Under the pieces are notes generated by a model. That model saw only the letters and a list, made by a program, of their open reading frames with translations. It was not told the DNA's origin and searched no databases. Shown in pieces: positions 9,201 through 26,842 of a stretch of DNA of 64,000 nt (positions within the stretch are counted from its first letter, which is position 1; each line of letters starts with the position of its first letter). Source of the stretch: Ruania zhangjianzhongii. GTDB lineage: Bacteria; Actinomycetota; Actinomycetes; Actinomycetales; Beutenbergiaceae. The DNA is taken from contig NZ_CP042828.1 in NCBI RefSeq assembly GCF_008000995.1, positions 1,922,001-1,986,000 of the forward strand, written 5' to 3'. The translations under genes were made by a program, and so were the position numbers.

Positions 9201-10418
9201 ATGGCAACGAACCGAGCAGTCGCGTACAAGGGACCGGGCAAGGTCGAGATCCAGGACATCCCTTACCCCGAGTTCGAGCTCAAGGACGGACCAGGTGTCA
9301 ACCCGGCGAACGTCGGGCGCAAGGTACCGCACGGCGTGATTCTGAAGACGGTCGCGACCAACATCTGTGGCTCGGACCAGCACATGGTGCGCGGCCGCAC
9401 CACGGCACCGGCCGACCTCGTCCTCGGCCACGAGATCACCGGCGAGGTCATCGAGCTCGGGTCAGACGTGGAGACCCTGCAGGTCGGTGACATCGTCTCC
9501 GTGCCGTTCAACATCGCTTGCGGGCGGTGTAAGAACTGCAAGGAGCGCAAGACCGGTGTCTGCTTGAACGTCAACCCGGACGGGTACGGCAGTGCCTACG
9601 GCTACGTGGACATGGGTGGTTGGGTCGGTGGCCAGGCCGAGTACGTGCTGGTGCCCTACGCGGACTTCAACGTGCTGAAGTTCCCGGACCGGGACCAGGC
9701 GCTGGCGAAGATGATGGACCTGACCATGCTCTCGGACATCTTTCCCACCGGTTTCCACGGCTGCGTCAGTGCCGGCGTCGGCGTCGGTTCCACGGTCTAC
9801 ATCGCCGGTGCAGGACCGGTCGGGCTGGCCGCTGCGACCGGCGCGTTCCTGCTCGGTGCCGCCGTGGTGATCGTCGGCGACATGAACGCCAAGCGGTTGG
9901 AGAAGGCCGCCGCCTTCGGCTGCGAGACCATCGACCTGACCAAGGGCGAACCGGCTGAGCAGATCGAGCAGATCCTCGGCGAACCGGAGGTGGAGTGCGC
10001 AGTGGACGCGGTCGGGTTCGAGGCTCATGGCCACGGTGCGGACGCAGGCACGGAGAAGCCGGCCACCGTGCTCAACTCGCTGATGGACATCACCGGCTCC
10101 GGTGGGTCGCTGGGCATCATCGGCCTGTACGTCACCGGTGACCCGGGTGCCAGCACGGAGGCCGCGAAGAAGGGCTCGCTGTCCCTGAGCCTGGGCACCG
10201 GCTGGGCCAAGTCGTTGGCCTTCGTCACCGGTCAGTGCCCGGTGATGAAGTACCACCGCGGCCTGATGAACGCCATCCTGCACGACCGGGTGAACATCGG
10301 GAAGAACGTGAACGCCACGGCGATCAGCCTGGACGAGGCGCCGGCCGGCTACGCCGACTTCGACTCCGGTACGGCGGTGAAGTACGTCCTCAACCCGAAC
10401 GGATACCTGGACAGCTGA
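9201..10418 (+). CDS. fdhA: Glutathione-independent formaldehyde dehydrogenase
   Basis: A 405-residue zinc-dependent medium-chain dehydrogenase, the size of the Pseudomonas putida type formaldehyde dehydrogenase that uses a tightly held NAD and needs no thiol cofactor. Visible signs: catalytic zinc ligands in NICGSDQH and GHEITGEV, the structural zinc cysteines in CGRCKNCKERKTGVC, and the Rossmann motif in YIAGAGPVGLAAA. The insertion with GYGSAYGYVDMGGWVGGQAEYV is typical of this subgroup. ATG 9201 follows AAGGAG at a good distance; the longer open frame back to 9012 is not coding in character. It probably detoxifies formaldehyde. Related formaldehyde dismutases are an alternative. Confidence 0.9.
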   Translation: MATNRAVAYKGPGKVEIQDIPYPEFELKDGPGVNPANVGRKVPHGVILKTVATNICGSDQHMVRGRTTAPADLVLGHEITGEVIELGSDVETLQVGDIVSVPFNIACGRCKNCKERKTGVCLNVNPDGYGSAYGYVDMGGWVGGQAEYVLVPYADFNVLKFPDRDQALAKMMDLTMLSDIFPTGFHGCVSAGVGVGSTVYIAGAGPVGLAAATGAFLLGAAVVIVGDMNAKRLEKAAAFGCETIDLTKGEPAEQIEQILGEPEVECAVDAVGFEAHGHGADAGTEKPATVLNSLMDITGSGGSLGIIGLYVTGDPGASTEAAKKGSLSLSLGTGWAKSLAFVTGQCPVMKYHRGLMNAILHDRVNIGKNVNATAISLDEAPAGYADFDSGTAVKYVLNPNGYLDS

Positions 10419-10424
10419 GGATGT

Positions 10425-10505
10425 GACGGCAGTCGCCGGGTATCCAGGCGTTCCTCGGTGAGGTCATCACCGTCGCGCGGGACCAGATACCCGGCGGCTG
10501 CCGTC
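10425..10505. repeat. Long inverted repeat with a nested hairpin
   Basis: Two 20-base arms (10425-10444 and 10486-10505) pair along their full length with one G-T wobble. The 41-base loop contains a second hairpin, CGGTGA/TCACCG (10456-10472). The element starts 7 bases after the fdhA stop. No T run follows. It may end fdhA transcription, or be a small palindromic repeat of the REP/MITE kind. It is not related in sequence to the palindrome at 28197. Confidence 0.75.
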
Positions 10506-10585
10506 GTGTCCGGCGGGCAGGCTATCCTGGGCCTCACCTGAGCCGTTCTGCGCACTGAGGGAGAGCCAGGTCACGTCGTGGTGGT

Positions 10586-10615
10586 TTGCCCCATCTGCCC
10601 TGCCTCGCGTAATCT
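10586..10615 (+). promoter_or_regulatory. Promoter of the rplU-rpmA operon
   Basis: TTGCCC at 10586-10591 and TAATCT at 10610-10615 are separated by 18 bases, a good match to a housekeeping actinobacterial promoter. It leaves a leader of about 115 bases before rplU, rich in GC and able to fold, which may take part in ribosomal-protein feedback; no known L21 leader motif was recognised. Confidence 0.6.
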
Positions 10616-10734
10616 TGGACGGCGGTGCCCCAGTGCACCGCTGCCTGTGCGCGCCGAACGGCGTGGGCTCATGTCTGCGGCTCTGCCGCTTCGATGCGAG
10701 CGCGCGGGTGCCCAGATCAACGCGAGCGACAGAG

Positions 10735-11055
10735 ATGAGCAAGAACGTGGTGTACGCGATCGTCAAGGCCGGCGGCCGTCAGGAGAAGGTGTCCGTCGGC
10801 GACATCGTCGTCGTGGACCGAGTGAGTTCCGACGCCGGCGAGTCCGTAGAGCTCAAGCCCGTTCTGCTGGTCGACGGGGAGAAGGTGACCTCGGACGCCG
10901 ACGCGCTGGCCAAGGTCACCGTGACCGCCGAGGTGGTGCGGGACGAGAAGGGCCCGAAGATCTCCATCGTCAAGTACAAGAACAAGACCGGCTACCGCAA
11001 GCGTCAGGGTCACCGTCAGCAGCTGACCCGCCTGAAGGTCACCGGCATCAGCTGA
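10735..11055 (+). CDS. rplU: 50S ribosomal protein L21 (bL21)
   Basis: A 106-residue protein with the standard bL21 sequence: [18 protein letters not shown] at the start and the [12 protein letters not shown] segment near the C-terminus that binds 23S rRNA. It is the first gene of the conserved rplU-rpmA-obgE-proB run. ATG 10735 is used here; many relatives begin at the equivalent of GTG 10750 (VYAIV), so the first five residues are uncertain. Confidence 0.97.
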
Positions 11056-11101
11056 GCCGACTGTCAGCTCAGACCAGCTTCTTAGAGACGAAAGGGCCAC
11101 C

Positions 11102-11359
11102 ATGGCAACGAAGAAGGGCGCAAGCTCCTCCAAGAACGGGCGCGATTCCAATGCACAGCGCCTCGGCGTCAAGCGCTTCGGCGGCGAGCGGGTGAAGGCG
11201 GGCGAGATCATCGTGCGCCAGCGGGGCACGCACTTCCACCCGGGCAACCACGTGGGCCGCGGCGGGGACGACACCCTGTTCGCCCTCGAGGGTGGCGCCG
11301 TGCAGTTCGGCTCCCGCCGGGGCCGCAAGGTCGTGGACATCGTTCTGGCCGACGCCTGA
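11102..11359 (+). CDS. rpmA: 50S ribosomal protein L27 (bL27)
   Basis: An 85-residue protein. The N-terminal [16 protein letters not shown] tail, which reaches the peptidyl-transferase centre in the ribosome, and the [20 protein letters not shown] core are typical. It begins MAT, so it lacks the cleavable N-terminal extension found in Firmicutes. AAAGGG precedes the start. It is co-transcribed with rplU, 46 bases upstream. Confidence 0.98.
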
Positions 11360-11372
11360 GTTTTAGTACCTC

Positions 11373-11419
11373 CGGCGGGGGCGCAGCGGCGAGACGTCGC
11401 TGGGCCCCCGCCGTTTTTT
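11373..11419 (+). terminator. Rho-independent terminator after rpmA
   Basis: A GC-rich stem (CGGCGGGGGC at 11373-11382 with GCCCCCGCCG at 11404-11413) is followed directly by six T. This is the best intrinsic terminator in the window and separates the ribosomal-protein pair from obgE. Confidence 0.9.
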
Positions 11420-11485
11420 CTATCGTCGCCTCCTGGGTAGCCGTCGTCGGCCGAGCAGGTGGGCACTCTCACCGGAGGTGAGGAG

Positions 11486-12985
11486 ATGACCAGCTTCGTC
11501 GACCGCGTGCTGCTGCACGCGCATGGGGGCGATGGTGGGAATGGCTGTGCCTCGGTGCGACGAGAGAAGTTCAAGCCGCTCGGCGGACCGGACGGCGCCA
11601 ACGGCGGGTCCGGCGGAGACGTCGTGCTCGTCGTGGACCCGCAGACCACCACCCTGCTCGACTACCACCACGCTCCGCACCGGCGCGCCACCAGCGGTAC
11701 CCAGGGCGCCGGTGACATGCGGACCGGGCGTAACGGTGAGGACCTGGAGCTCGCCGTCCCGGACGGCACTGTGGTCAAGGACGGCCGCGGGAACGTCCTG
11801 GCCGACCTGGTCGGTGCCGGCAGCAGGTTCGTGGCCGCACAGGGCGGGCGCGGCGGGCTGGGGAACGCGGCGCTGGCGTCCCCACGCCGCAAGGCCCCCG
11901 GGTTCGCGCTGCTCGGCGAGCCCGGCCAGGAGCACGATCTGGTGCTCGAGCTGAAGACCGTCGCCGATGTCGCCCTGGTCGGGTATCCCAGCGCCGGAAA
12001 GTCATCTCTGGTTGCGGCGCTCTCGGCGGCACGGCCGAAGATCGCCGACTACCCGTTCACCACGCTGGTGCCCAACCTCGGCGTGGTGCAGGCCGGTGAG
12101 CAGCGGTTCACCGTGGCCGACGTCCCTGGTCTGATCCCCGGCGCCAGCGAGGGCAAGGGCCTCGGTCTGGAGTTCCTCCGGCACATCGAACGGTGCGCGG
12201 TGATCGTGCACGTCCTCGACTGCGCCACCCTGGAGCCCGGGCGTGACCCGATCAGCGACCTGGACGTGATCGAGGCTGAGCTGGCCGCCTACGCCGCGGA
12301 CCTGGAGATCAGCGGCGGGCGCACGCCACTGACCGAACGCCCGCAGCTGGTGGTGCTGAACAAGATCGACGTACCCGAGGCCCGCGATCTCGCCGAGCTG
12401 GTGCGTCCCGATCTGGAGGCGCGTGGCCTGCGCGTCCTGGAGATCTCGACGGCGTCCCACGAGGGGCTCCGCCCGCTCACCTTCGCCCTCGCCGAGCTGG
12501 TGCAGACCGCTCGGGAAGCCGAACCCGCCCCGGACCCGACCCGGATCGTGATGCGCCCGAAGGCGGCCGGCGATGCCGGGTTCACCGTGACCCGGCGGAG
12601 CACCGACCACGTGTACTACCTGGTGCGCGGAGACAAACCAGAACGCTGGGTGCGCCAGACCAACTTTGCTAACGACGAGGCGGTGGGCTACCTCGCCGAC
12701 CGGCTCGCCCGGATCGGTGTCGAGCAGAAGCTGTTCGCCGCCGGCGCCCAGGCGGGGGACGAGGTGGTGATCGGCGACGGCCCGAACGGTGTGGTCTTCG
12801 ACTGGGAGCCCACCATGTCGACCGGGGCGGAGCTGCTCGGTGGTCCTCGGGGCAGCGACCTGCGGCTGGAGGAGCGCCACCGGCCCACCCGTTCCGAGAA
12901 GCGGGAACAGTTCCACGAGCGGATGGACGCCAAGGCCGCCGCCCGGGATGAACTGTGGGCCGAAGGCGAGGACTCCGGCTCGTGA
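11486..12985 (+). CDS. obgE: GTPase ObgE/CgtA
   Basis: A 499-residue essential GTPase that acts in 50S ribosome assembly and stress responses. Three domains are seen: the glycine-rich Obg fold (about 1-158, with HGGDGGNG and GGSGGDV), the G domain with the Walker [10 protein letters not shown], switch segment [19 protein letters not shown] and NKID, and a C-terminal OCT domain (about 350-430) followed by an acidic/charged tail. ATG 11486 has GGAGGTGAGGAG just upstream. Its stop overlaps the GTG of proB by four bases, so the two are translationally coupled. Confidence 0.97.
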
Positions 12986-14145
12986 CCGTGACCGACCGGA
13001 CAGCTCTGGCCGACCCGGCCCGTGCCCGCCGGCTCGTGGTCAAGGTGGGATCCTCCTCCTTGACCGACGAGGTGGGGCGGCTGGACGTGGTCAAGCTCAC
13101 CCGCCTGACGGACGTCCTCGCTCGCCGGATCGAGGCGGGTAGCCAGGTGACCCTGGTCTCTTCCGGCGCTATCGCCTCGGCGCTGACGGTGCTCGGGCTG
13201 CCCGGCCGGCCTCGGGACCTGTCCATGGCGCAGGCCGCAGCGTCGGTGGGCCAAGGGCTGCTGATGGCGCACTACACGCGCGCGTTCGCGAGCCATCGCC
13301 TGCATGTGGGGCAGGTGCTGCTCACTGTGGAGGACGTGATCCGGCGCAGCCACTACCGCAATGCCCAGAGCGCCCTGAACCGGCTGCTGGACCTCGGCGT
13401 GGTGCCGATCGTGAATGAGAACGATGCTGTGGCCACCCACGAGATCCGGTTCGGTGACAACGACCGGCTCGCGGCGCTGGTCTCTCACCTGACCCGGGCG
13501 GACGCCCTGCTGCTGCTGACCGATGTGGACGCCCTCTACGACGGCCCACCTTCCCGGCCGGGCAGCGCCCGGGTGCCGGTGGTGGCCAGCACCGCTGATC
13601 TCGACGGTCTGGAGATCACCGCACCTGGCAGCCGGCTGGGCACCGGCGGGATGGTGACCAAGGTGGAGGCGGCCCGGATCGCTACCGGTTCCGGGATCCC
13701 CGTGGTCCTCTCCAGTGCCGAGAACGCTGCTGCGGTGCTCGACGGTGCGGACCTGGGAACCTGGTTCGCACCCACCGGGCGCCGGATCCGCACGCGCCGG
13801 CTGTGGCTGGCACATGCCGCCCACACCCGTGGCCGGGTGATCCTCGACGACGGGGCGGTGGACGCGATCACCGTGGGGAAGAAGTCGCTGCTCGCGGCAG
13901 GAGTGACCGGGGTGGAAGGCGACTTCGAGGTCGGCGACCCGGTCGACCTGGCCGATACCCGCGGCGTGGTGGTGGCCCGCGGTCTGGTGGCCTACTCCGC
14001 CGAGGAGCTGCCCGAGCGGATGGGGCGTACCTCCGCGCAGCTGCGGGACGCGTTCGGGGACGGGAACGACCGCGAGGTGGTGCACCGGGATGACCTGGTA
14101 GCGGTGCGTGAGCCGCGCCGGATGGGGAGTTCTGCCGCCCGGTGA
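12982..14145 (+). CDS. proB: Glutamate 5-kinase
   Basis: A 387-residue enzyme for the first step of proline synthesis, phosphorylating glutamate with ATP. The amino-acid kinase domain (about 10-260) shows [22 protein letters not shown], the NENDAVAT glutamate-site loop and the [15 protein letters not shown] segment. A C-terminal PUA domain (about 285-365) is present, as in the E. coli enzyme. Start GTG 12982 overlaps the obgE stop. Its usual partner proA lies 12.7 kb downstream, because a block of other genes sits between them. Confidence 0.97.
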
Positions 14146-14164
14146 GCGGGCGCGAGGTGGCAGG

Positions 14165-15097
14165 ATGGCGGCCATGCCTGCCGTGACCCTCGCCGACGAC
14201 GACCTTTCCGAGGTGGTGCAGGCGGCGGACGCCGTCGCGATCCGCAGCCAGCGAGCCTTCATCTGGAGCATGCGGCTGCACTACACGCTGCTGGTGGTGG
14301 CTGCCGCTTGCGGCTCGTTCGCCTTCATCATCCCGGGGACCGATGCCGACGCTGTGGCCATCCTCGGTGCCCTCTGCTTCGGTACCAGCCTGATGCTGCG
14401 GGTGTACCGGAGCACGAAGGACTCCGAGACGCAGTGGCTCACTGCGCGCGCCGTGGCGGAGTCCACCAAGGGGGACAGCTGGCGCTACGCCGTCGGTGGC
14501 ACGCCCTACCCGGAGGAGATGGACGCCCGATCGGCCCGCCGGTTGTTCCTGGAACGTCAGCAGGACGAGATCCTCGACCTGGGGGTCACTCTCGCGGACC
14601 AGGGCGCCGACCTGGCGTATCTCACCCCGGCGATGAAAAGGCTGCGCGCTGAGGACTTCGAGACCAGGCGGGAGTCGTATCTGACTGACCGGCTGGCCGA
14701 CCAGTTGCGGTGGTACGCGAGGAAGAGCCAGCAGCACACCACGCTGGCGGACCGGTGGTTCGTGGGCATGCTGCTGGCGGAGGCCGCGGGCCTGGCCTCC
14801 GCAGTGGTCAAGGCGGCCGGACTGCTTGACCTGGACCTGCTGGGCATCTTCGCGGCGATGGCGTCGGCCTTCGGCGCCTGGAACCAGATGCGCCAGCACC
14901 GCCGCACTGCGGGTGCCTACCGGCGCACCGCCGCCACGCTGGCCACGCTGCTCGCCGGGGCGCGGGAGGACCTCACCGAGGAGGTGTGGCCGGCGTTCGT
15001 GGATCGTGCGGAGCGGCTGATGGGCGATGAGCTGTCCGCCTGGCAGACACTCCGGCTGGCCGAGGCGGGGCGTAACAGCGACGAGTCTGCTGCATGA
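14165..15097 (+). CDS. SLATT-family 2TM membrane protein (DUF4231-like)
   Basis: A 310-residue membrane protein with two copies of the helical-pair layout known from SMODS and SLOG-associating 2TM (SLATT) effector families. The first half has membrane helices near 38-56 and 62-80, followed by an AESTKGDSWRYAVGGTPYP segment like SLATT_3. The second half has YLTDRLADQLRWYARKSQQH before another helix pair near 200-240, like SLATT_1. Such proteins are thought to be pore-forming or membrane effectors triggered by nucleotide signals. ATG 14165 is chosen; ATG 14174 is an alternative. It starts a three-gene run with the SLOG gene 37 bases downstream. Confidence 0.78.
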   Translation: MAAMPAVTLADDDLSEVVQAADAVAIRSQRAFIWSMRLHYTLLVVAAACGSFAFIIPGTDADAVAILGALCFGTSLMLRVYRSTKDSETQWLTARAVAESTKGDSWRYAVGGTPYPEEMDARSARRLFLERQQDEILDLGVTLADQGADLAYLTPAMKRLRAEDFETRRESYLTDRLADQLRWYARKSQQHTTLADRWFVGMLLAEAAGLASAVVKAAGLLDLDLLGIFAAMASAFGAWNQMRQHRRTAGAYRRTAATLATLLAGAREDLTEEVWPAFVDRAERLMGDELSAWQTLRLAEAGRNSDESAA

Positions 15098-15134
15098 GCG
15101 AGGCACCGCAGGGCGTGTGCACGAGGAGCACAGC

Positions 15135-15665
15135 ATGAGCGCGAGGAGCGCCCGCGTCGGTACACGGAGGGACCCGGTCCGCATCGCCGTCACCGGGCAC
15201 CGGTCCTTCGACGCCGCCGCCACCGCCTACATCACCGCCCGAGTGGGTGAAGTGCTCGATGAGGCCGTCGCCGGAGGCCGCCCGGCCCGGGTGGTGACCA
15301 GCCTGGCCGAGGGTGCGGACCAGCTCGTCGCTGCGGCGGCGGTGCAGCGCGGTATCCCGGTCGAGGTGATCATCCCGTCCGCCGGGTACGCCGAGAGCCT
15401 GCCCGCAGCCCGGGACCGGCGCCAGTACGCCGAGCTGCTCGCTCGTGCGGACTCCGTGCGCACTCTGGACCATCCGGAACCATCGCCGGCCGCGTACCGC
15501 GACGCCGGGATGGCGATGCTGGCCAACGCCGACCTGCTGATCGCCGTCTGGGACAGCGAACCGGCCCGCGGTGTGGGCGGGTCGGCCGAGATCGTCGCTC
15601 GTGCCCGCGAGCTCAGCCTTGACCTGCAGGTGATCTGGCCCCCCGGCTATCATCGGCCACGCTGA
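15135..15665 (+). CDS. SLOG-superfamily nucleotide-sensing protein
   Basis: A 176-residue Rossmann-like protein of the SMF/DprA-LOG (SLOG) superfamily. The VTGHR motif at residues 19-23, the TSLAEGADQLVA segment, and DLLIAVWDSEPARGVGGSAEIV near the C-terminus are the usual sites of this fold for binding or cleaving a nucleotide ligand. SLOG proteins next to SLATT genes are predicted sensors or processors of nucleotide signals in conflict systems. GAGGAG at 15123-15128 supports the ATG at 15135. It is 15 bases from the next gene, so all three are probably one operon. Confidence 0.78.
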   Translation: MSARSARVGTRRDPVRIAVTGHRSFDAAATAYITARVGEVLDEAVAGGRPARVVTSLAEGADQLVAAAAVQRGIPVEVIIPSAGYAESLPAARDRRQYAELLARADSVRTLDHPEPSPAAYRDAGMAMLANADLLIAVWDSEPARGVGGSAEIVARARELSLDLQVIWPPGYHRPR

Positions 15666-15680
15666 GACGGGGGAGTGGAC

Positions 15681-17504
15681 GTGACGCGAGTCCTGGCCAA
15701 GGTGAGCCTGATGCTGATGGTGTGCTGCGCCGTCGTGCTCGGAAACGCCCTTCCCGCGGCTGCGGACGAGACGCCGGTGTGGGAGCCGGGCCCGGAATGG
15801 GGTACGGCCGAGTACACCGAGCTGCCCGAATGGGCCGCCGCGACCGGGTGCGACGCAGGTGAGCAGTGGACCTGGACCTCCGATCAGGGTCAGATTGCCT
15901 GGCGGATCATTCCGTGTGCGGAATCCGGGGCGGCAATGGGTGCCGGAATGTGGGATGAGCCGACCGGCAGGGAGCTCGGCGACGCCTCGGTGTTTGACCA
16001 CTCCGACGATCGGGTGTGGTGGCTGCCCACCGACCAACAGATCGTCCGGCAGTGGGCGATGGACCAGGACCCGGAACGCGAGCACATCCTCGTGCGGGTA
16101 GCTGTCAGCTGCAGCAGCGACGCCGCGGCACAGTGCGCGCAGGAGTCCTCCTGGGTCAGTACCGAGATTGCCGCTGCGATGTCCGGAACACCCGCCGACA
16201 ACCGGTTCGACCTCACTCTGGTGTTCGTGCTGGCCTTTGTTGGCCCTGGAATGCTCTGGGCCCTGCTGGTCCTGCCCTGGCGGCTCATCCTCGCGCTCCT
16301 GCGCCCGCGCTACACCATCGGCGACCACCCGCCGCGCGTGCAGGACCTGACCACCGCAGTCCGCTGGGCGCGGGTCCGGCGATTCATCCGCCGAATCGCT
16401 TGGGGACTGGCGCTCGCCGGAGTGCTGCTGGGGCTCGGCTTCGCGATCACCGGCACTTCGGAGCAGGCGCTCGGGATCACCGCGATCGCCGCCCTGCTAG
16501 TCGGAGTGCTGGCGCTGGCCTACAAAGTGGCGCCGCCCCACCCGGTCGAGCGCGGGCGCAGCGTCGCACTGAACCGGACCGGCTGGCGTGGCGTGCTCGG
16601 CGTACTGCTCAGCTCCGTGGCCTACGCACTGCTGCCAGTGCTGATTGCCGTGTACCTGCTGGCGCTCGCCTACGACGAGATCATGCCGGGCTGGCCGGTC
16701 ACCACAGGCAGCCAGCTCGCCCAGCGACCGGAGCCGTTCGCGCGACTCTTCTACGGCTGGGGGGCCGACACGGGCACGATGTCGTTGGGCTTCATCTTCT
16801 TCGTGCTGCTTCCCGGGTTGATGGTGCTGTTCGCCCTGGATCTACTCGGCCAGCGCCTGCGCGCGGCCACAGTGGCGGACGCTCTCGCCCGGGACCGGCG
16901 CCCGCACTACCTGTACCTGCGCAGCTTCGACGAGGACACCCTGAAGATGCCGGGACTGCTCCGCCGCCGGGGTCTGATCGGCGCGCTCACCGTGTTTCGC
17001 AGGGTGCGGTTCGAGGAAGTGCTGGTCCGTCAGCTGTCGATGACCGGGCCGGTGATCGCGATCGCGCCGCCGGGGGCGAAGCTGCCACCGATCGGCGCGG
17101 CCCGGGCCAGCTTCAGCAACGATGAGTGGCAGGCGCATGTGGAGCACTACGCCCGCACCGCGCGGGCCGTGGTGCTCTCCGCCACCCCCCGGGAGGTGCG
17201 GGCCGGCTTCGGCTGGGAGATCGACCTGGTGGCCAACCGGATGGGCCACGGCCGGGTGATGGTGGTGCTCGGCCCCTGGTCCAAGCCGCAGCTGGTGAAC
17301 CGGTGGCGGCAGTTCTGCCAGGCGGTGGCGCATCTACCCCTGTTCACCCCGATGGCGATGACCTGGGTACCGGCCGGGGTGCAGCTGCTCGCGCACAGCG
17401 ACCGGCAGGGCTGGCGTGCCTGGGGAGCCCGCGGCCGCACCGACTGGACCTACACGATGGCCGTGGACCGGGCCACCCGGGAATACCTGCCGGACTGGTC
17501 CTGA
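15681..17504 (+). CDS. Multi-pass membrane protein with C-terminal YLRSF domain
   Basis: About 607 residues. An N-terminal signal peptide (residues 1-27, ending PAAADE) leads to an outside domain of about 150 residues with a few Cys and Trp. Four to five membrane helices follow, near 180-205, 232-275, 300-325 and 360-385. A cytoplasmic domain (about 405-560) has YLRSFDED (411-418), GPVIAIAPPGAKLPPIGAAR, and GFGWEIDLV near 508-516. I know this last pattern from uncharacterised membrane proteins; it may be a distant TIR/SLOG-like Rossmann fold with the Glu of WE as a catalytic candidate, but that is inference. GTG 15681 has GGGGGA 6 bases upstream. Confidence 0.72.
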   Translation: MTRVLAKVSLMLMVCCAVVLGNALPAAADETPVWEPGPEWGTAEYTELPEWAAATGCDAGEQWTWTSDQGQIAWRIIPCAESGAAMGAGMWDEPTGRELGDASVFDHSDDRVWWLPTDQQIVRQWAMDQDPEREHILVRVAVSCSSDAAAQCAQESSWVSTEIAAAMSGTPADNRFDLTLVFVLAFVGPGMLWALLVLPWRLILALLRPRYTIGDHPPRVQDLTTAVRWARVRRFIRRIAWGLALAGVLLGLGFAITGTSEQALGITAIAALLVGVLALAYKVAPPHPVERGRSVALNRTGWRGVLGVLLSSVAYALLPVLIAVYLLALAYDEIMPGWPVTTGSQLAQRPEPFARLFYGWGADTGTMSLGFIFFVLLPGLMVLFALDLLGQRLRAATVADALARDRRPHYLYLRSFDEDTLKMPGLLRRRGLIGALTVFRRVRFEEVLVRQLSMTGPVIAIAPPGAKLPPIGAARASFSNDEWQAHVEHYARTARAVVLSATPREVRAGFGWEIDLVANRMGHGRVMVVLGPWSKPQLVNRWRQFCQAVAHLPLFTPMAMTWVPAGVQLLAHSDRQGWRAWGARGRTDWTYTMAVDRATREYLPDWS

Positions 17505-17554
17505 GCCACAGCAGGGCTACGGTAGAAGAGATACTCCCGGACGGATGAGGAGAC

Positions 17555-19075
17555 ATGTCGGCGATCGTGGCGGCCCATGGCCCGTTCGACGAACGGTTGG
17601 GGCAGCGGATGCTCGCGCGGATGGCGCACCGGGGACCGGATGGGACCGGCAGCGTCGAGATCGCGGGCGCCTGGCTCGGCAGCGCCTATCTGTCCATCGT
17701 TGATCCGGACGGCGGCGCGCAGCCGCTGACCGTGGGCGCACCGGAGGTGGCGCTGATCGGCGACGGGGAAATCTACAACCATCGCCGGATCCGGGATCAG
17801 CTGGGGGAGAGCCGGTTTCGCACCGGATCCGATCTGGAGGCGGTGCTGCACCTGTTCCAGGACCAGGGCGTGGCCGCGTTCGAACAGCTGTGGGGCACGT
17901 TCGCGCTGGTAGGTGCCGCCGCAGACGGCCGGTTCGCCGCCGCACGGGACGTCCTCGGCATCTCCCCGCTGTACTGGGCACGGCGTGGGCAGACCGTCCT
18001 GTTCGCCTCCGAGCTGAAGGCGTTCGAGGGCGACTGGCGGCCGCTGGCCGAACCCTTCCCGCCGGGGCACTCCTGGACCCCCGCCGGCGGACTGGTCCCC
18101 GGACCGGCCTTTCCGGGGAGCTCCCCGGTGCTGCTGAAGAGCCGAGCACCGTCCGAGGAACCGCCCTCCTGGGTGTTCGACGCGCTGCGGGAGACGCTGG
18201 TGCGGGCCGTCCAGCGGAGCCTGCACGCCGTCGTTCCGGTGGGCATCATGCTCTCCGGCGGAGTCGACTCCTCGATCATCGCGGCCATCGCCGCCCGGCT
18301 GGCTGCCCGCCAGGGCGAGCAGCTGCCCACGTTCGCGGTCGGTCTGGCCGGCAGCAGCGATCTGCTGGCCGCCCGCACTGTGGCCGAACACGTCGGCACC
18401 GACCATCACGAACTGGTCTATACCGCTGAGGACGCGATCGCGATGGTGCCTCAGATCATCGGCGAGCTGGAGTCTTTCGACCCCACGCTGGTGCACAGCG
18501 CGGTACCCCATCATCTGGTCGCCGCATTGGCCGCCGAGCACGTGAAGGTGGTGCTGGCCGGTGAGGGGGCGGACGAGCTGTTCGCCGGATACAGCCACTA
18601 CGGCCGCCATGACACCGGCGAAGCGCTGCACGAGGACCTGCTCGACACGCTCGAGGGCATGCACATCGGTGGGCTGCAGCGGGTGGACCGGGTAGCGGCG
18701 GCACACGGCATCGAACCGCGGTTGCCGTTCCTGGACTTGGACTTCGTGGAGCTGGCACTGGCGCTGCCGCCGGGGTGGAAGCTACTCGACGAGGGGCGGC
18801 CGGCGAAGTGGCTGCTCCGGCGCGCCTTCGACAGCTGGCTGCCGGAGGAGGTGCTCTGGCGCCGGAAGGAGCAGTTCGGCGAGGGGACCGGGATGAACAC
18901 GGTGCTCGCCGAGCACTTCGAGGAGACGGTGAGCGCGGCGGAGCTGGCCGGTGCGGCGTCGGCTCTCGACCCGCCGCTGCGCACCCGGGAGGAGCTGGCC
19001 TACTACCGGATCTTCACCGCGGCGCTGCCCGGGATCGATGCCGGGCGCACGGTGGGGCGCTTCGCCGAGACGTGA
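17555..19075 (+). CDS. Asparagine synthetase homologue with degenerate glutaminase domain
   Basis: A 506-residue AsnB-type protein. The C-terminal synthetase domain is intact, with the PP-loop SGGVDSS near residue 233 and GEGADELFAGY. The N-terminal glutaminase domain keeps the fold markers HRGPD, LSIVD and TGSD, but the chain begins MSAIV instead of MCGI/MCSI. The nucleophile Cys1 is replaced by Ser, the Arg before LSIVD by Tyr, and the Asn of the NGEIYN loop by Asp. It should therefore not use glutamine and may use ammonia or act on another carboxylate. GAGGAG precedes ATG 17555. It lies 50 bases after the YLRSF membrane protein. Confidence 0.85.
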   Translation: MSAIVAAHGPFDERLGQRMLARMAHRGPDGTGSVEIAGAWLGSAYLSIVDPDGGAQPLTVGAPEVALIGDGEIYNHRRIRDQLGESRFRTGSDLEAVLHLFQDQGVAAFEQLWGTFALVGAAADGRFAAARDVLGISPLYWARRGQTVLFASELKAFEGDWRPLAEPFPPGHSWTPAGGLVPGPAFPGSSPVLLKSRAPSEEPPSWVFDALRETLVRAVQRSLHAVVPVGIMLSGGVDSSIIAAIAARLAARQGEQLPTFAVGLAGSSDLLAARTVAEHVGTDHHELVYTAEDAIAMVPQIIGELESFDPTLVHSAVPHHLVAALAAEHVKVVLAGEGADELFAGYSHYGRHDTGEALHEDLLDTLEGMHIGGLQRVDRVAAAHGIEPRLPFLDLDFVELALALPPGWKLLDEGRPAKWLLRRAFDSWLPEEVLWRRKEQFGEGTGMNTVLAEHFEETVSAAELAGAASALDPPLRTREELAYYRIFTAALPGIDAGRTVGRFAET

Positions 19076-19092
19076 GCGAGCGGCAGCACACG

Positions 19093-19135
19093 CACCGGGC
19101 CGGCCGTCACCGCGATGATGACGACCGGCCCGGTG
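19093..19135. terminator. Bidirectional terminator hairpin
   Basis: Perfect 11-bp arms (19093-19103 and 19125-19135) enclose a further CGTCA/TGACG pairing after one mismatch. It lies between the convergent ends of the asparagine synthetase gene and the ABC binding-protein gene. Confidence 0.75.
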
Positions 19136-19151
19136 CTGCTGCTGTGCGGAC

Positions 19152-20084
19152 CTACTCCAGCAGGCCCTGCTCCTCCAGCCACTCCTCGGCGACGTCGCGG
19201 GGCTGCTCACCGTCGTTGTCCACCCGGCCGTTCAGCTCGGTGATCACGTCATTGGTCAGCGCCTCGCTGATCGGCGCCAGGATGTCGGCGATCTCCGGGT
19301 ACTCGTCCAGCGTCTCCTGCCGCAGCGTCGCAGCACCGGCATACTCGACGAAGAAGCCCTGATCGTCCTCGAGCACGGTCAGATCGTTGGAGACGATGCG
19401 CGCATCGGTGGAGAAGACCTCACCGAACTGGCACTCCTGGCCGACCTGGGTGTAGATGAGGTTGAGGTCGAGCTCGACCACTGAGGTGAACTCGAAGCCG
19501 TAGGCCTCCTCGAGCCCGGGCAGGCCGTCGTCGCGGTTGATGAACTCGCTGGCCGCGCAGACGTTGCCCTGGTCCGGGTTCGCGGAGACGAACTCGGCCA
19601 TATCGGAGCTGGTGGCCAGACCGTTGTCCTGCGCGAACGCAGCACTGGCCGCGATCCGGTAGGTGTTCTCGAAGTTGGCAGGTTGCAGCCAGGCGATGCC
19701 GTTCTCGGCGTCTTCCTCGGCCACTGCGTCGTACAGGTCCTCGGGCACGTCCTCGGTGGTGTGGCCGAGGATGTTCACCCAGCCGGTCCCGGTGTAGTCC
19801 CAGTAGATGTCGATCTCGCTGGTCTCCAGCGCCTCGCGGACGGTGGCGCTGCCGGAGATACCGGTCTGATCGGTGATCTGTGCGCCGGCGTTCTCCAGCG
19901 CCACTGCCGTGATCTGGCTGAGCAGGATGGATTCGGTGAACTCCTTCGAGCCGACCGTGAGCTCGGCGCCGGCCAGCGGACCGTCGGAGTTTCCACCGCC
20001 CGAGTCACCGCTGCACCCGGCCACGGCCAGCAGCACGGCCAGGCCTCCAGCAGCGACGGCGGCAGGTGTGCGTAGTGTTCTCAT
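19152..20084 (-). CDS. Quaternary-amine ABC transporter substrate-binding lipoprotein
   Basis: A 310-residue lipoprotein: signal peptide with lipobox LAVAGC, a short Gly/Ser linker, and an OpuAC/OsmF-type binding domain opening with LTVGSKEFTESILLSQ and including IYWDYTGTGW. The family binds glycine betaine, choline or similar compounds through a cage of aromatic residues; Trp and Tyr in the WDYTGTGW segment are candidates. It is the last gene of the operon glsA-permease-ATPase-permease-binding protein, 49 bases after the second permease. Confidence 0.9.
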   Translation of the reverse strand: MRTLRTPAAVAAGGLAVLLAVAGCSGDSGGGNSDGPLAGAELTVGSKEFTESILLSQITAVALENAGAQITDQTGISGSATVREALETSEIDIYWDYTGTGWVNILGHTTEDVPEDLYDAVAEEDAENGIAWLQPANFENTYRIAASAAFAQDNGLATSSDMAEFVSANPDQGNVCAASEFINRDDGLPGLEEAYGFEFTSVVELDLNLIYTQVGQECQFGEVFSTDARIVSNDLTVLEDDQGFFVEYAGAATLRQETLDEYPEIADILAPISEALTNDVITELNGRVDNDGEQPRDVAEEWLEEQGLLE

Positions 20085-20133
20085 CGTTCGTCTCCTCGTG
20101 GTGGACAGTGGGTGGTGGGTGGCCGTCGGCGCG

Positions 20134-20916
20134 TCACAGTCCCCGCGGGCGCAGGACGTCCTCGGCGAGTCCGGCCAGGTAGTCGATGGTCAGGGCGAGC
20201 ACAGCGGTGAGCACGGCCCCCACCACCTGCACGGTGAACCGGTTCGTGGTCATCCCGGCGACGATGATGTCACCGAGACCACCGGCGTTGATGTAGGTGA
20301 CCAGAGTGGCGGTACCGACGTTGATCACCAGGGCGGTGCGGATCCCGGCGAGGATCACCGGTACGGCTAGCGGCAGTTCCAGGCGGCGCAGCACGGTGAA
20401 CTTGGACATGCCCATCCCACGGCCTGCCTCGAGCACCGAGGAGTCCACCTGTTCCAGACCGACCATCGTGTTCAGCAGCACTGGCACGATCGCGTAGAGC
20501 ACCAGACCAACGATCGCCGCCTGGAACCCGAGGAACAGGAACGCCACCGCCAGCAGCACCAGGATCGCGATCGTCGGTACTGCCTGTCCGAGGGTGAGCA
20601 GGGTGATCAGGTAGGGCTGGATCCGGCGCGCGAACGGGCGGGTGAGCACGACCCCCAGCGGCACGGCGATGATCAGGGTGAGGACCGTGGAGACTGCCGC
20701 GAGCTGGATGTGCTGCCAGATCGCAGCGGTGAGCCGGTCGGCGCTGAGTGCCCGCGCCTCGATGGAGTCGAGGTCCTTGCTGGCCACCCACAGGTACAGG
20801 GCTGCACAGGTGAGGGCCAGGATCGCGGGCATGACCAGGTAGCCGCCCCAGCTCCGCCTGGACTTTGCTTCGGGCGTCTGGGTGACGAGCGCCCGGGTGG
20901 GGGCGCCGGTGCTCAT
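20134..20916 (-). CDS. Quaternary-amine ABC transporter permease (second)
   Basis: A 260-residue inner-membrane permease of the OpuAB/ProW/OsmW type with about six helices. The coupling motif region ALEAGRGMGM-like (here VLEAGRGMGMSKFTVLRRLELPLAVP) contacts the ATPase. Its ATG overlaps the ATPase stop by four bases (ATGA), so the genes are translationally coupled. The N-terminal 30 residues are a cytoplasmic, basic leader. Confidence 0.9.
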   Translation of the reverse strand: MSTGAPTRALVTQTPEAKSRRSWGGYLVMPAILALTCAALYLWVASKDLDSIEARALSADRLTAAIWQHIQLAAVSTVLTLIIAVPLGVVLTRPFARRIQPYLITLLTLGQAVPTIAILVLLAVAFLFLGFQAAIVGLVLYAIVPVLLNTMVGLEQVDSSVLEAGRGMGMSKFTVLRRLELPLAVPVILAGIRTALVINVGTATLVTYINAGGLGDIIVAGMTTNRFTVQVVGAVLTAVLALTIDYLAGLAEDVLRPRGL

Positions 20917-22100
20917 GGACTCTCCTGCAGGCCGGCGCGGGCCTCGGTGACGGCGGCAGCGCGCATCGACCGGATCGCGTCGGTGATCTGGTCGATGTCC
21001 ACCACACCCTGGAACACCCCGTCGTCGTCGACCACGATGGTCACGCTGTACCGGGCGGTGATCAGCTCGTTCAGGGCATCGCTGAGCGTTGCCCGCGGCT
21101 CCACTGCCGGGTTGGTCGGCAGACCGATCTCGTCCAGGCGGCGCCCGGCACCGCGGCGCAGGTCCTCGGCGCTGACCCAGCTCACCGGACTGCCTTGTGC
21201 GTCGAGCACCAGCAGCGCGCTCTCCGGCACGGTGCGCAACTGTTCCAACGCGGCCTCGGCGTCAGTGTCGTAGCTGACTGTCGGCCACGCGCGCAGTTCG
21301 ATATCAGCGACGTGGGTCAGGTTGAGGCGCTTCAGCGAGGCACCGCGGCCGATGAAGTCGGCAACGAAGTCGTTGGCAGGTGCGGTGAGGATCTGCTCCG
21401 GGGTGTCGTACTGAGCGATCCGGGAACCCTCTTGCAGGATCGCGATCCGGTCGCCGAGCTTGATCGCCTCATCGATGTCATGGGTGACGAACACGATCGT
21501 CTTGCGGACCTCGGCCTGCAGCCGGAGCAGCTCGTTCTGAAGCCGGTCGCGGGTGATCGGGTCGATCGCACCGAATGGTTCGTCCATCAGCAGGACCGCA
21601 GGGTCTGCGCCCAGGGCACGGGCGACGCCGATCCGCTGCTGCTGGCCACCCGAGAGCTGCTTGGGGTAGCGGCTTCGGTACTCCTCCGGCGCCATGTTGA
21701 CCATCCGGAGCAGCTCGTCCACCCGAGCCCGGATTCGGGTGGCGTCCCAGCCGAGCAGCTTGGGCACGGTGGCGATGTTCTCCGCGATGGTCATGTGCGG
21801 GAACAGGCCGATCTGCTGGATCACGTAGCCGATCCGGCGGCGCAGCCGGTCGGCGTTCGTGGTGGTGACGTCCTCGCCGCCGAGCAGGATCCGCCCAGCC
21901 GTGGGTTCGATGATCCGGTTGATCATCTTCATCGTGGTGGTCTTTCCGCAGCCGGAGGGTCCGACGAGCACCACGATTTCGCCACGGTGGATATCCAGGT
22001 CGAGGGCATCGACGGCGTTGCGCTGCTGCCCGGGGTAGCGCTTGGTGAGGCCTTCCAGGCGGATCATCACGTCATCGCCGGCGGCGGGTGTCTGCGTCAT
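20913..22100 (-). CDS. Quaternary-amine ABC transporter ATPase with CBS domains
   Basis: A 395-residue ATPase. The N-terminal ABC domain has Walker A GPSGCGKTT, signature LSGGQQQR, Walker B VLLMDEPFGAIDP and the switch His in VTHD. The C-terminal 110 residues hold two CBS motifs, as in OpuA-type importers, where they sense ionic strength or cyclic-di-AMP. ATG 22100 overlaps the first permease's stop (ATGA). The frame is open far upstream, but that is the shadow of the permease. Confidence 0.93.
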   Translation of the reverse strand: MTQTPAAGDDVMIRLEGLTKRYPGQQRNAVDALDLDIHRGEIVVLVGPSGCGKTTTMKMINRIIEPTAGRILLGGEDVTTTNADRLRRRIGYVIQQIGLFPHMTIAENIATVPKLLGWDATRIRARVDELLRMVNMAPEEYRSRYPKQLSGGQQQRIGVARALGADPAVLLMDEPFGAIDPITRDRLQNELLRLQAEVRKTIVFVTHDIDEAIKLGDRIAILQEGSRIAQYDTPEQILTAPANDFVADFIGRGASLKRLNLTHVADIELRAWPTVSYDTDAEAALEQLRTVPESALLVLDAQGSPVSWVSAEDLRRGAGRRLDEIGLPTNPAVEPRATLSDALNELITARYSVTIVVDDDGVFQGVVDIDQITDAIRSMRAAAVTEARAGLQESP

Positions 22101-22741
22101 CGGATTCCTTGGGACGTGGTGAGGCGGCGGGCGGTGTAGAACAGCAGGTCGAAAAGGACCGCGAGGATGATCACGCCGAGCGTGCCGGCGAGCACCAGGT
22201 GCACCGCGACCGGGGTGCCCACCCGGGCCAGGCCGGTGAAGATGAGGTTGCCGTAGCCGGGGCCGTTGACGATGGCGCCGATGGCGCAGATGCCCAGCAG
22301 CACCAGAGTGGTCACGCGGATTCCGGTGATGATCACCGGCCAGGCCAGGGGGAGCTCGATCTGCCGCAGCCGCTGCCACCGGGTCAGGCCCATGCCCTTC
22401 GCGGACTCGATCACCGCCGGGTCCACACTGTTCAGGCCGGTGACCGTGTTCCGCACGATCGGCATCAGCCCGTACATCGTCAGGGCCACGATCACCGGCC
22501 GGGCGCCCAGCCCGAGCGGGCCGAGCAGCAGGATGAACAGGGCGAACGAGGGCACGGTGAGCATCGCACCGGTAGTGGCCAGGACCAGGTCCCGGGCGCG
22601 CTGGCGCTGGTAGGTGAGCACGCCGAGGGCGATCCCGAGCACGGAGGCGAAGAGCACGGAGATGGCCACCACACCGGCGTGCCCCAGGCCGAGCTCGAGC
22701 ATGTCGTCGCTGCGGTTGACCAGGAAGTCGAGAAACTCCAT
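22097..22741 (-). CDS. Quaternary-amine ABC transporter permease (first)
   Basis: A 214-residue permease, about five to six helices, of the OpuC/OsmY type. The coupling segment reads VIESAKGMGLTRWQRLRQIELPLAWP. It starts the transporter part of the operon, 64 bases after the glutaminase gene. Two different permeases, one ATPase and a lipoprotein make a heterodimeric importer. Such systems give osmoprotection, though the substrate is not certain. Confidence 0.9.
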   Translation of the reverse strand: MEFLDFLVNRSDDMLELGLGHAGVVAISVLFASVLGIALGVLTYQRQRARDLVLATTGAMLTVPSFALFILLLGPLGLGARPVIVALTMYGLMPIVRNTVTGLNSVDPAVIESAKGMGLTRWQRLRQIELPLAWPVIITGIRVTTLVLLGICAIGAIVNGPGYGNLIFTGLARVGTPVAVHLVLAGTLGVIILAVLFDLLFYTARRLTTSQGIR

Positions 22742-22805
22742 CGTGTCCTCCTTCCGGGGTGGGTCGTCCTGGGCTCCTACAGGTGAGTGGGCATGCGCCG
22801 CGAGT

Positions 22806-24611
22806 CTAGTGGCTGACCCGTGCTGCCACCGTTCGAGCGTATTGCTCGGCGTGGGCGTAGGCGTCCCGAGCCAGTGCCCGCCACAGCTGCACCGCCAGCC
22901 TGGGCCGGGCCTGCTCCAGGGTCTCGATCGTCTCCGCGTCCAGCAGCATCAGCTCGACCGGGCCATCGGCCTTCGCGGTGGTCTCCTGTCGGTCCTCCTC
23001 ACCCAGGGCGAGGTCGCCGAACGTCATCCCTGCGGTGAGGGTGGCCACCGGTACTCGGTTCCCGCCGGCGTCGGTAGCGATGGTCAGGATCCGCCCGGTC
23101 AGGATGAAGAACACCCCGCCGAAGCGTTGCCCGACCCGGCGGATCACGTCACCGTCGGCGTAGCTGCGCAGGTGCATCAGCGCGGTCAGGGCGGTGATGT
23201 CCTCGGCCTCCAGCAGGGACAGGGCGGGTGAGTCCATCACCGGTACCCGAGCCCGCTGAGAGTCGGGAGTGCCGTACCGGAGGAGGAGCTGGTTCTCGCA
23301 GTGCGCGATCGCCAGCTCCCGGGAGTCGAAGGTTGCCACGGTCTCGGCGGACAGGGCGGGGGTGAGCAGCTCGTCCGGGTCCACGAGGATCAGTCGCCGC
23401 CCCTCTGCGGCGAACTGCTCGGCGATCCTTCTCAGCATGTCCAGCGCCACCCGGCTCACCTCGTCCAGGCGGTGCACATCGAGAACAACGAACTCGACGT
23501 CGTCAGCCAGGCCACTGAGCTCGCGCACCACGGACTCGGTGCCGGCGAAGTACAGGTCCCCGGCCAGCTCGATCACCACGGCGCGATGACCGTGTTCGGC
23601 GAGGATCTCGCTCGCCTCTTCGGTGCGGCGCGTCTTGGAGGGTTCGCGGTCGATGGTGTGGTGGGAGCGGATCGCGGAGCGCCCGGCCCGGGCGGCGCGG
23701 ACGAAGTGCATCTCCATGTCCCGGGACACCCGCCGGCAGGTGGCCACACCGCGCACACTGTTGCCGTGCGGGTCCAGCGGCGGGGAGTACACCGCCAGCC
23801 CGGCCTGGCCCGGGAGCACGGCGATCACCCCGCCACCGACCCCGGACTTGGCCGGCATCCCCACGTTCGAGACCCAGTCGCCGGCATCGTCGTACATGCC
23901 AGCGGTCATCATCACCGACAGCACCCGCTCGACGGCCTCGATGCTCAGTGCTTCGGCCCCGGTCTCCGGGTTGGTGCCACCGTTGGCGAGGGTCGCGGCG
24001 ATCATCGCCAGATCACGGCAGGTGACCTGGACGGTGCACTGGCGCAGGTAGGTCTCCAGAGCGGCAGTGGGGCGGCTCTCGATGATGCCCACCGAGCTGA
24101 GCAGGTAGGCCAGGGCGTGGTTGCGGTCGCTGTTGCGCAGCTCGGACTGATAGGCGCGGGTGCTGCGGCGCAACCGGCGCCCGGCGAACGCCGCGTAGGT
24201 CTCGTCGATGCGCTGGATCGCTGATCGCCCGCCGGAGCCCTTGATCATCGAGACCACGGCCAGCGCCCCGGCGTTGATCATCGCGTTCGCCGGTCGTCCG
24301 GTCTCCGGGTCGAGGGAGATCTCGTTGAACGGGTCGCCCGAGGGTTCGACGTCGATCTTTGCGTCCACGGACTCGATGCCGAGGTCGGCCAGCACCAGAC
24401 CGTAGCTCAGCGGTTTGGACAAGGACTGGAGGGAGAACTCCTTGCTGGTGGTGCCCACCTGGTAGACGTAGCCGTCCACGGTGGCCAGGGCGATGCCGAA
24501 GTCGTCCGGGTCCACCGCACCGCGGGCCCCGATGCGATAGGGCGTACCCTCGCGCAGCTGCGCGATCTGGTCGTGCAGCTGGTGCAGGTAGGCGGTGATC
24601 GGAGACTCCAT
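22806..24611 (-). CDS. glsA: Glutaminase A fused to STAS and cNMP-binding domains
   Basis: A 601-residue protein. Residues 1 to about 305 are a serine-dependent glutaminase (beta-lactamase fold) that turns glutamine into glutamate and ammonia; S63-L-S-K66 is the catalytic S-x-x-K, and GRPANAMINAGA and KSGVGGGV are typical. Residues about 330-430 form a STAS-like domain (ELAGDLYFAGTESV). Residues about 460-590 form a cyclic-nucleotide-binding domain (RRVGQRFGGVFFILTGRI). The same three-part design is known in other bacteria. The added domains suggest control by a nucleotide and a partner protein. Ammonia made here could feed the nearby synthetase that lacks its own glutaminase (inference). Confidence 0.93.
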   Translation of the reverse strand: MESPITAYLHQLHDQIAQLREGTPYRIGARGAVDPDDFGIALATVDGYVYQVGTTSKEFSLQSLSKPLSYGLVLADLGIESVDAKIDVEPSGDPFNEISLDPETGRPANAMINAGALAVVSMIKGSGGRSAIQRIDETYAAFAGRRLRRSTRAYQSELRNSDRNHALAYLLSSVGIIESRPTAALETYLRQCTVQVTCRDLAMIAATLANGGTNPETGAEALSIEAVERVLSVMMTAGMYDDAGDWVSNVGMPAKSGVGGGVIAVLPGQAGLAVYSPPLDPHGNSVRGVATCRRVSRDMEMHFVRAARAGRSAIRSHHTIDREPSKTRRTEEASEILAEHGHRAVVIELAGDLYFAGTESVVRELSGLADDVEFVVLDVHRLDEVSRVALDMLRRIAEQFAAEGRRLILVDPDELLTPALSAETVATFDSRELAIAHCENQLLLRYGTPDSQRARVPVMDSPALSLLEAEDITALTALMHLRSYADGDVIRRVGQRFGGVFFILTGRILTIATDAGGNRVPVATLTAGMTFGDLALGEEDRQETTAKADGPVELMLLDAETIETLEQARPRLAVQLWRALARDAYAHAEQYARTVAARVSH

Positions 24612-24640
24612 GAGGTGAGCCTAATCACCTCAGTGGCTCT

Positions 24641-25198
24641 CTACAGGCGGGTGTGCGCGCCGATGCCGTGGTAGGTGCGGTCGTGGTAGACCAGCGGCCG
24701 CTCGGCCCGGTCGATCTGGGCTTCCAGAGCGTGCAACGTGACCAGGTGGCTCTCCCCAGTGCGGACCCGATCGACCACCCGCGCGCGCAGCCACGCGGCG
24801 GCATCGGTCAGCAGCGGTTCCCCGCCGGGTAGCCGCTCGGCAGCCACCCCGGCGAACCGGTCCGTGCCGCGCCGGGCGAACTGGGCGGACAGGTGCGCAC
24901 TGGCCGCATCCAAGAAGTGCACCAGCACGGTGTCCGCCTGCCGCAGCGCCTGCCAGGACGAGGAGCTCGAGGCGATGGCGAACGCGAGCATCGGGGGAGT
25001 GGCCGAGACTGAGATCACGCTGGTCGCAGTGAACCCGACGGGGCCGTGCTCCGCGGCCAGCGTGATCACCGCGACGCCGGCCGGGTGCTGGCGGAATACG
25101 CGCTTGAAGTCCTCACCGGCCAGCTGGTCGCCCGGTGCGCCGGCAGTCTCGGGCGCTGTGCCACCCCGGGCACTGTCGGACTCACTCAGTGCACTCAC
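24641..25198 (-). CDS. Flavin reductase-like protein
   Basis: A 185-residue protein of the DIM6/NTAB (HpaC-like) flavin reductase family. Visible: QHPAGVAVITL near the start of the domain, GFTATSVISVSATPPML for flavin binding, and the final GIGAHTRL. It reduces FMN or FAD with NAD(P)H and passes it to a partner monooxygenase. The start is GTG 25198. It is divergent from a SAM-riboswitch-controlled luciferase-like monooxygenase, which is the likely partner in sulfur-compound oxidation. Confidence 0.87.
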   Translation of the reverse strand: MSALSESDSARGGTAPETAGAPGDQLAGEDFKRVFRQHPAGVAVITLAAEHGPVGFTATSVISVSATPPMLAFAIASSSSSWQALRQADTVLVHFLDAASAHLSAQFARRGTDRFAGVAAERLPGGEPLLTDAAAWLRARVVDRVRTGESHLVTLHALEAQIDRAERPLVYHDRTYHGIGAHTRL

Positions 25199-25285
25199 AC
25201 CGCCACGCTAACCCGGGCCCGGCGGGCCTTGGCACGGGTGGTGGCGCATCTCACTTCGTGGGCGCGGATCGACACCTACTGATTG

Positions 25286-25315
25286 TTGACACGTCATCCA
25301 TCGTGTCCGTAGAGT
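25286..25315 (+). promoter_or_regulatory. Promoter of the riboswitch-controlled sulfur gene
   Basis: TTGACA at 25286-25291 and TAGAGT at 25310-25315 have an 18-base spacer. Transcription would start just before the SAM riboswitch. This is the closest match to the vegetative consensus in the window. Confidence 0.75.
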
Positions 25316-25323
25316 GTTGGTGT

Positions 25324-25437
25324 AGGTCTTGAGCGTCAATCAGATGGCCCCGGCCGGTTGACCGGCAACCCTCCACATGCGGTGGGGTGCCCCGGGTGAC
25401 GACCTGGCCCCGTTCCTCTCCGGCGGGGCAAGCGCAG
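25324..25437 (+). promoter_or_regulatory. SAM riboswitch, SAM-IV type
   Basis: P1 is formed by AGGTC (25324-25328) with GACCT (25411-25415). Between them are the conserved SAM core blocks: TTGAGCG, GGCAACCCTCC, GCGGTGGGGTGCC and CGGGTGA. After P1 a CCCCG/CGGGG hairpin is followed by CAAGCGC, the extra 3' part that marks SAM-IV over SAM-I. Actinobacterial SAM-IV elements turn down sulfur-assimilation genes when S-adenosylmethionine is plentiful. Here the controlled unit is a small Cys-rich ORF and a luciferase-like monooxygenase. Confidence 0.88.
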
Positions 25438-25482
25438 CACCGCCAGCGTTGCGGTACGAGTAGAAGGAACAGCACAGCCATC

Positions 25483-25560: not shown

Positions 25561-25702
25561 GCCGAACCTCATCCGGTGCCCCGGGCGTCTCGCCCCTCGG
25601 CCCCACCCCTGGTTCGCGCGTCGCACAAGGCTGACGGAGTGACACCGTCGGCGTGCCTCAGCGCAGCTGGGCCTTCCGCTCCTCTGGTTGCAAGGAACTC
25701 CC

Positions 25703-26746: not shown

Positions 26747-26842
26747 AGCCGGCCCCGGGGGCCCGGTCTCCGGCGGTGCGCAAGCCGGCCTGAGACGGCC
26801 CGGCGGTCGAGGCGATCCGCGGCCTATCCTGGGAGGATGAGC

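Follow-up and report, generated by a model that had tools for sequence, protein, structure and literature searches.

The closest described relatives of the locus reported here are the Thoeris systems, in which a TIR protein, ThsB, is accompanied by ThsA, either a SIR2-SLOG or a transmembrane (TM)-macro protein. The signal-making enzymes known from systems of the Thoeris type are soluble. Passages of the literature state that one ThsB subfamily has an active site like that of DNPH1 and the nucleoside 2-deoxyribosyltransferases (NDT) (PMC11204291), that SLATT is predicted to be a pore responsive to nucleotide signals (PMC7159879), and that YpsA-like SLOG has been linked to cyclic ADP-ribose sensing, TIR, DrHyd and SLOG have been placed in one clade and neighbourhoods of TIR with SLATT occur in phages (PMC9503650). 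Here we describe a cassette of three plus-strand genes (14165–17504) in a 64 000-nucleotide stretch (the window) of the 5.1 Mb genome of Ruania zhangjianzhongii. It begins 19 bases after proB (12973–14145, plus strand) and encodes a SLATT protein (gene 1), a SLOG-like protein (gene 2) and a membrane protein (gene 3) with a cytosolic domain that we call YLRSF after its motif at residues 412–416 (16914–16928). The coordinates, strands and gaps of 37 bases (genes 1 and 2) and 15 bases (genes 2 and 3) given in an initial annotation of this DNA are all correct.

Like Thoeris, the cassette combines a domain of the TIR/DNPH1 fold group with a SLOG protein, as in the SIR2-SLOG type, and a putative membrane effector, as in the TM-macro type. 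It differs in that the enzyme-like domain sits on a membrane protein that also has an outside domain, the SLOG protein is separate and lacks SIR2, and the effector would be SLATT. The PADLOC models of ThsA and ThsB matched none of the three proteins at E values up to 1. Predicted SLATT/SLOG/TIR conflict systems likewise associate SLATT and SLOG with a member of this fold group, but the third partner here is unmatched by the Pfam TIR, NDT and SLOG models and bears the outside domain. TIR/SLOG systems of the Thoeris type are thus already known; the YLRSF family is so far unnamed in the libraries that we tried. In our view the cassette may be a three-component, membrane-centred nucleotide-signalling module with gene 3 as a receptor-like enzyme, a reading that we consider evenly balanced between right and wrong. 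It draws on computed gene identities, fold resemblance, an invariant Trp-Glu pair, conserved gene order and recurrent partner linkage.

Gene 3 (15681–17504, 607 residues; translation could also start at the in-frame GTG at 15675) had been described as a signal-peptide, multi-pass protein ending in YLRSF and GWEIDL elements, and this description holds. A hydrophobic, signal-peptide-like N-terminus (no predictor run) is followed by an outside domain (residues 29–170; 15765–16190), five membrane helices predicted from an AlphaFold2 model and hydropathy (residues 178–393; 16212–16859; helices 178–207, 224–257, 260–283, 302–334 and 368–393) and the cytosolic YLRSF domain (residues 394–607; 16860–17501). 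The outside domain has a fold like those of TiME, the extracellular domain of PknH and Mog1, and in fold comparison also resembles the envelope-sensor domain of MucB/RseB. In PknH the extracellular domain is coupled to a kinase, whereas in gene 3 it is coupled to a DNPH1-like domain. Domain identities indicate far stronger conservation in the cytosolic domain than elsewhere in the protein. Against R. albidiflava, the YLRSF domain has a ratio of nonsynonymous to synonymous substitution rates (dN/dS) of 0.14, the remainder of gene 3 one of 0.56 and proB one of 0.12; all values for the cassette are below 1, the outside and membrane parts of gene 3 evolving fastest. For the whole protein, Pfam and PADLOC offered no family at E values up to 1, and NCBIfam none over its cut-off; comparison with PDB sequences gave little or no result, and a Foldseek search with the model of the entire protein found nothing at E ≤ 0.001.

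The best fold match of the YLRSF domain is the deoxynucleotide N-hydrolase DNPH1, in agreement with the Rossmann-type fold that the initial annotation had thought possible. Residues L413, R414, F416, P464, G472, R475, W483, W512 and E513 are invariant in 53 aligned members from several phyla (alignment A5), a count that excludes a degenerate paralogue without the WE motif (L085:7235–7618). This paralogue is one of six among the 53 distant matches omitted from A5; the other five are Streptomyces copies (L096, L103, L112, L115 and L117) that looked redundant, their redundancy not having been measured. Alignment A4 omits L103, L112 and the same paralogue, and a lower-scoring match in L082 had been dropped before the 53 distant matches were taken. 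E513 (codon 17217–17219, within GWEIDL at 511–516) is the candidate catalytic glutamate. As in DNPH1 and the NDT enzymes, whose fold the domain shares, this glutamate lies in the helix after a strand, here at domain residues 114–118. The catalytic triad of DNPH1 is Tyr24-Asp80-Glu104, according to passages of PMC10603095; in the YLRSF domain the glutamate is matched by its place in the fold, while the aspartate and tyrosine are not evident when judged by spacing only. The domain further differs from DNPH1/RCL and NDT in lacking a Pfam match and in being fused to a membrane region.

Aligned by hhalign with a four-sequence TIR alignment, W512-E513 fell on the TIR glutamate with a probability of 22%; no TIR chain was present among the 50 VIA fold matches listed, which leaves room for a TIR relationship, and hhalign against the SLOG alignment gave nothing of weight. 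The structural check against TIR, SLOG and NDT folds suggested in the initial annotation came out for the DNPH1-like fold. Searches with the 53 members found no TIR, NDT (Nuc_deoxyrib_tr), SLOG or DUF4062 model in Pfam at E values up to 0.1 and no PADLOC match at E values up to 0.01. What they did find was six unrelated Pfam families, each with one member (best E 0.0012), and one NCBIfam family with one member (E 0.0095), which fits the earlier remark that the third gene is no standard partner. DUF4062 (Swarozyc), from which YLRSF is thereby set apart, is according to PMC13174449 a TIR-like NADase family that had gone by the name of a 'domain of unknown function'. Viral contigs searched for NDT had no match, and PDB profile matches, mainly to designed TIM barrels, were dismissed as composition artefacts. 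No such domain was found in titles, abstract openings and passages of the literature; the SLATT/SLOG founding paper (NAR 2015) may already give it a different name, and papers matching 'YLRSF' concern pyrrolysyl and non-canonical amino-acid work. From the fold model we infer membership of the TIR/DNPH1/SLOG Rossmannoid group and a possible catalytic role.

The lack of an evident counterpart of the DNPH1 aspartate would also suit a non-catalytic, nucleotide-binding regulator, in which case gene 3 would be a ligand-gated sensor and the SLOG and SLATT genes a separate pair merely co-expressed with it. The paralogue in L065/L085, whose domain is degenerate and has no WE motif, is in keeping with such a role, as is the retention of YLRSF without these SLATT and SLOG types in two genomes of the family (G014 and G018). 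We nevertheless regard it as unlikely, given that the Trp-Glu pair and two arginines do not vary in the 53 aligned members and that conservation within gene 3 is by far the highest in the cytosolic domain.

Some copies of the domain have other architectures. Two YLRSF genes form a divergent pair in L065 (7270–9579, minus strand; 9643–12633, plus strand); in one of them the outside domain appears to be duplicated, and the C-terminal domain is degenerate and lacks the WE motif. YLRSF domains also occur in long proteins with TPR-like regions (L033:9437–12733 and L084:2034–5546).

The domain is rare in even genome draws with a family-weighted profile: an early profile of this kind (A2) found only the window's own copy in 149 genomes of the phylum (at E ≤ 1e-5 among 19 scored candidates in each genome) and copies in 12 of 297 genomes of the order (10 candidates per genome). 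The named-genome scan gave 59 loci, ten in the family and 49 elsewhere, and viral contigs added one (L125). The hosts beyond the family are Streptomyces, Kitasatospora, Saccharopolyspora, Paracoccus and metagenome-assembled genomes of Verrucomicrobia, Desulfobacterota and others; one Streptomyces locus (L112) is on a plasmid, by its record title. At these 50 loci, profiles built from the family only (E ≤ 1e-4) detected SLATT in five and SLOG in six, and a profile for the octameric membrane protein 8xMP, built from four of the eight loci that it matched, detected this protein in eight, its genome background not being measured. One or more of the three occurs at 14 of the 50 loci, always within 1.5 kb of the YLRSF reading frame, and none at the other 36, some of which are on short contigs. 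A weak SLATT-like match in the viral contig (E 1.5e-4) misses the cut.

Genome-wide totals were obtained for 30 isolate genomes (252 Mb), with 47 YLRSF, 18 SLATT and at least 38 SLOG genes, the SLOG totals being lower bounds with 118 candidates scored in most genomes. Within 4 kb of YLRSF lie five SLATT and seven SLOG genes, where uniform placement would give 0.031 and 0.059, respectively, so that the linkage is more than 100-fold over expectation. These figures use near pairs counted by eye, rounded genome sizes and merged rows (48 to 47 for YLRSF, 39 to 38 for SLOG). The 30 genomes, representing 30 of the 49 loci, were picked after the near matches were known and contain all eleven near loci; the 19 loci outside them have none. 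Of the near matches, four of the five for SLATT and six of the seven for SLOG are themselves rows of the alignments behind the totals, A6 and A7; all had first been found with window-family profiles alone, except one in G465. Related Streptomyces loci are not independent, and by arrangement we judge that there are about four separate SLOG and about four separate SLATT associations.

The arrangements themselves are varied. In L122 and L110 no more than about 30 bases separate YLRSF from the SLATT gene that comes after it; the order is caspase-domain gene, SLOG, DUF805, YLRSF in L109 and 8xMP, SLOG, YLRSF in L119. L111 has two TIR-type proteins (read from the sequence), YLRSF, a caspase-domain gene and SLATT, and L084 has a YLRSF-TPR gene, SLATT and ThsB_TIR. 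A Streptomyces cluster (L095, L096, L103 and L115) consists of YLRSF, a DUF4328-type protein, 8xMP and SLOG, the octameric membrane protein replacing SLATT; DUF4328 was tested with Pfam in L103 only and 8xMP in L096.

Within the family, which takes in Ruania, Occultella, Pseudactinotalea (filed by NCBI under Cellulomonadaceae) and a genome labelled Actinotalea caeni, we sampled 24 genomes. YLRSF is present in 11, ten by search (including a 58-residue remnant in G008) and G007, in which gene 3 runs off the contig end; SLOG is present in eight and SLATT in six, the SLATT set lying within the SLOG set and this within the YLRSF set. The full trio is found in the window genome, G010, G017, G020 and G023, and in G007 as cut by the contig end; G005 and G021 have SLOG and YLRSF only. 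All 11 YLRSF genomes have a copy after proB, within about 2 kb, with another gene between in G014, G018 and G008, and a second copy lies elsewhere in G014, G018 and G021. Gene order is kept in the Ruania and Occultella relatives. In Occultella aeris (L066) SLATT (4321–5271) and SLOG (5268–5822) share a four-base overlap, which suggests coupled translation. The neighbourhood search proposed in the initial annotation thus found the order kept in relatives and the partner types recurring beside YLRSF in other genomes, and the trio, which it had expected never to recur if its idea were wrong, is present in several.

The place after proB takes different cargo, as it would if three unrelated genes had by chance come to be co-transcribed there. 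We find this highly improbable in the face of the order shared by Ruania and Occultella, the SLATT/SLOG overlap in L066 and the strength of the linkage in other genomes. In four of eight Ruania genomes (G001, G003, G004 and G006) the same place holds a block of sigma-70-like, subtilase and TPR-CHAT genes, assigned by Pfam for three L131 proteins and the L129 CHAT protein and by similar length and sequence start for L132, L133 and the remainder of L129. The place looks like a variable slot taking conflict-type operons.

Gene 1 (14165–15097, 310 residues) had been called a double SLATT protein, and matches SLATT_3 (PF18184, E 3.5e-33, 115.5 bits) and SLATT_1 (PF18181, E 1.8e-28, 99.5 bits) well over the curated Pfam cut-off of 26.3 bits for each; the NCBIfam scores are 129.9 bits against a cut-off of 45 and 90.8 against 41. 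Its hydrophobic stretches, residues 38–81 and 199–238, each span enough for two helices by hydropathy only. The dN/dS is 0.07 against L031 and 0.42 against L022. By its domains it is a predicted membrane effector.

The SLOG call for gene 2 (15135–15665, 176 residues) is weaker. Two SLOG families match below their Pfam cut-offs: PF10686 (E 1.6e-4, 21.8 against 28.2 bits) and PF06908 (E 1.7e-4, 22 against 27.7 bits). The TGH motif on which the call had been made is kept in relatives; the TGH, AEGAD and GVGG regions are conserved, and T20, G21, H22, G148 and G149 invariant, in ten aligned relatives (A7). TGH and GG positions mark SLOG. The dN/dS against R. albidiflava is 0.36. Gene 2 is a predicted nucleotide sensor or processor.

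Under the signalling-module reading, the outside Mog1/PknH-type domain would sense an envelope or extracellular stimulus, which the five helices would relay to the YLRSF domain. Using E513, this domain may cleave an N-glycosidic bond, NAD+ or another nucleotide being the candidate substrate. The SLOG protein would bind the product and drive SLATT to open or destabilize the membrane, with growth arrest, abortive defence or an envelope-stress response as possible outcomes. We infer this chain, from stimulus through catalysis, substrate, ligand binding and pore opening to biological role, as the simplest because of the roles given to SLATT and SLOG in the literature and because a membrane protein with a sensor part carries a further member of that fold group. 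A broader proposal, that of a surface pathway of the Toll-like-receptor kind spread over several phyla, with outside sensor, membrane-tethered TIR/DNPH1-like enzyme, separate SLOG reader, SLATT or 8xMP executor and interchangeable partners, is tentative and rather doubtful. If true, it would offer a testable receptor-to-messenger-to-pore chain, with a TIR/DNPH1-like domain that lies beneath an outside domain and helices and is encoded near SLATT, SLOG and octameric-membrane-protein genes. A model of the YLRSF domain would make it possible to annotate membrane proteins of several phyla that are now hypothetical.

The surroundings of the cassette bear on whether its role would be defence. An asnB-like gene lies 50 bases 3′ of gene 3, and it, an Opu-type transporter, a glutaminase and an LLM-like gene (Opu and LLM names read from the sequence) share with the cassette the 12.7 kb between proB and proA (14146–26836). 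The site by proB, the transporter and the glutaminase would suit an envelope or osmotic stress module, with SLATT answering osmotic or wall stress in the vicinity of genes for proline, betaine uptake and glutamine, and so would the likeness of the outside domain to PknH and MucB/RseB and the failure of gene 3 to match any phage or plasmid record. That the module serves stress and not defence is nonetheless unlikely: tblastn detected neither the transporter nor the glutaminase at the Occultella loci, the equivalent place in other Ruania holds the subtilase/CHAT block, and relatives elsewhere adjoin caspase-domain and ThsB_TIR genes or belong to a plasmid (L112) and a viral contig (L125). As to the accessory island of the initial annotation, gene 3 itself matched no plasmid or phage record, but the last two loci show relatives of its domain on such elements.

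The same annotation had the cassette splitting proB from proA. We reject it as the cause of the split, since the interval holds the other genes named above and the two are also apart, with other content, in a cassette-less genome (G002, L130); in four other Ruania genomes proA lies beyond the stretch examined. A stretch of about 48 bases at the SLATT/SLOG junction (15096–15143) has five more copies in the genome, with 74–96% identity, and further partial copies adjoin some of these. The glutaminase (22806–24611) is fused to STAS and cyclic-nucleotide-binding domains.
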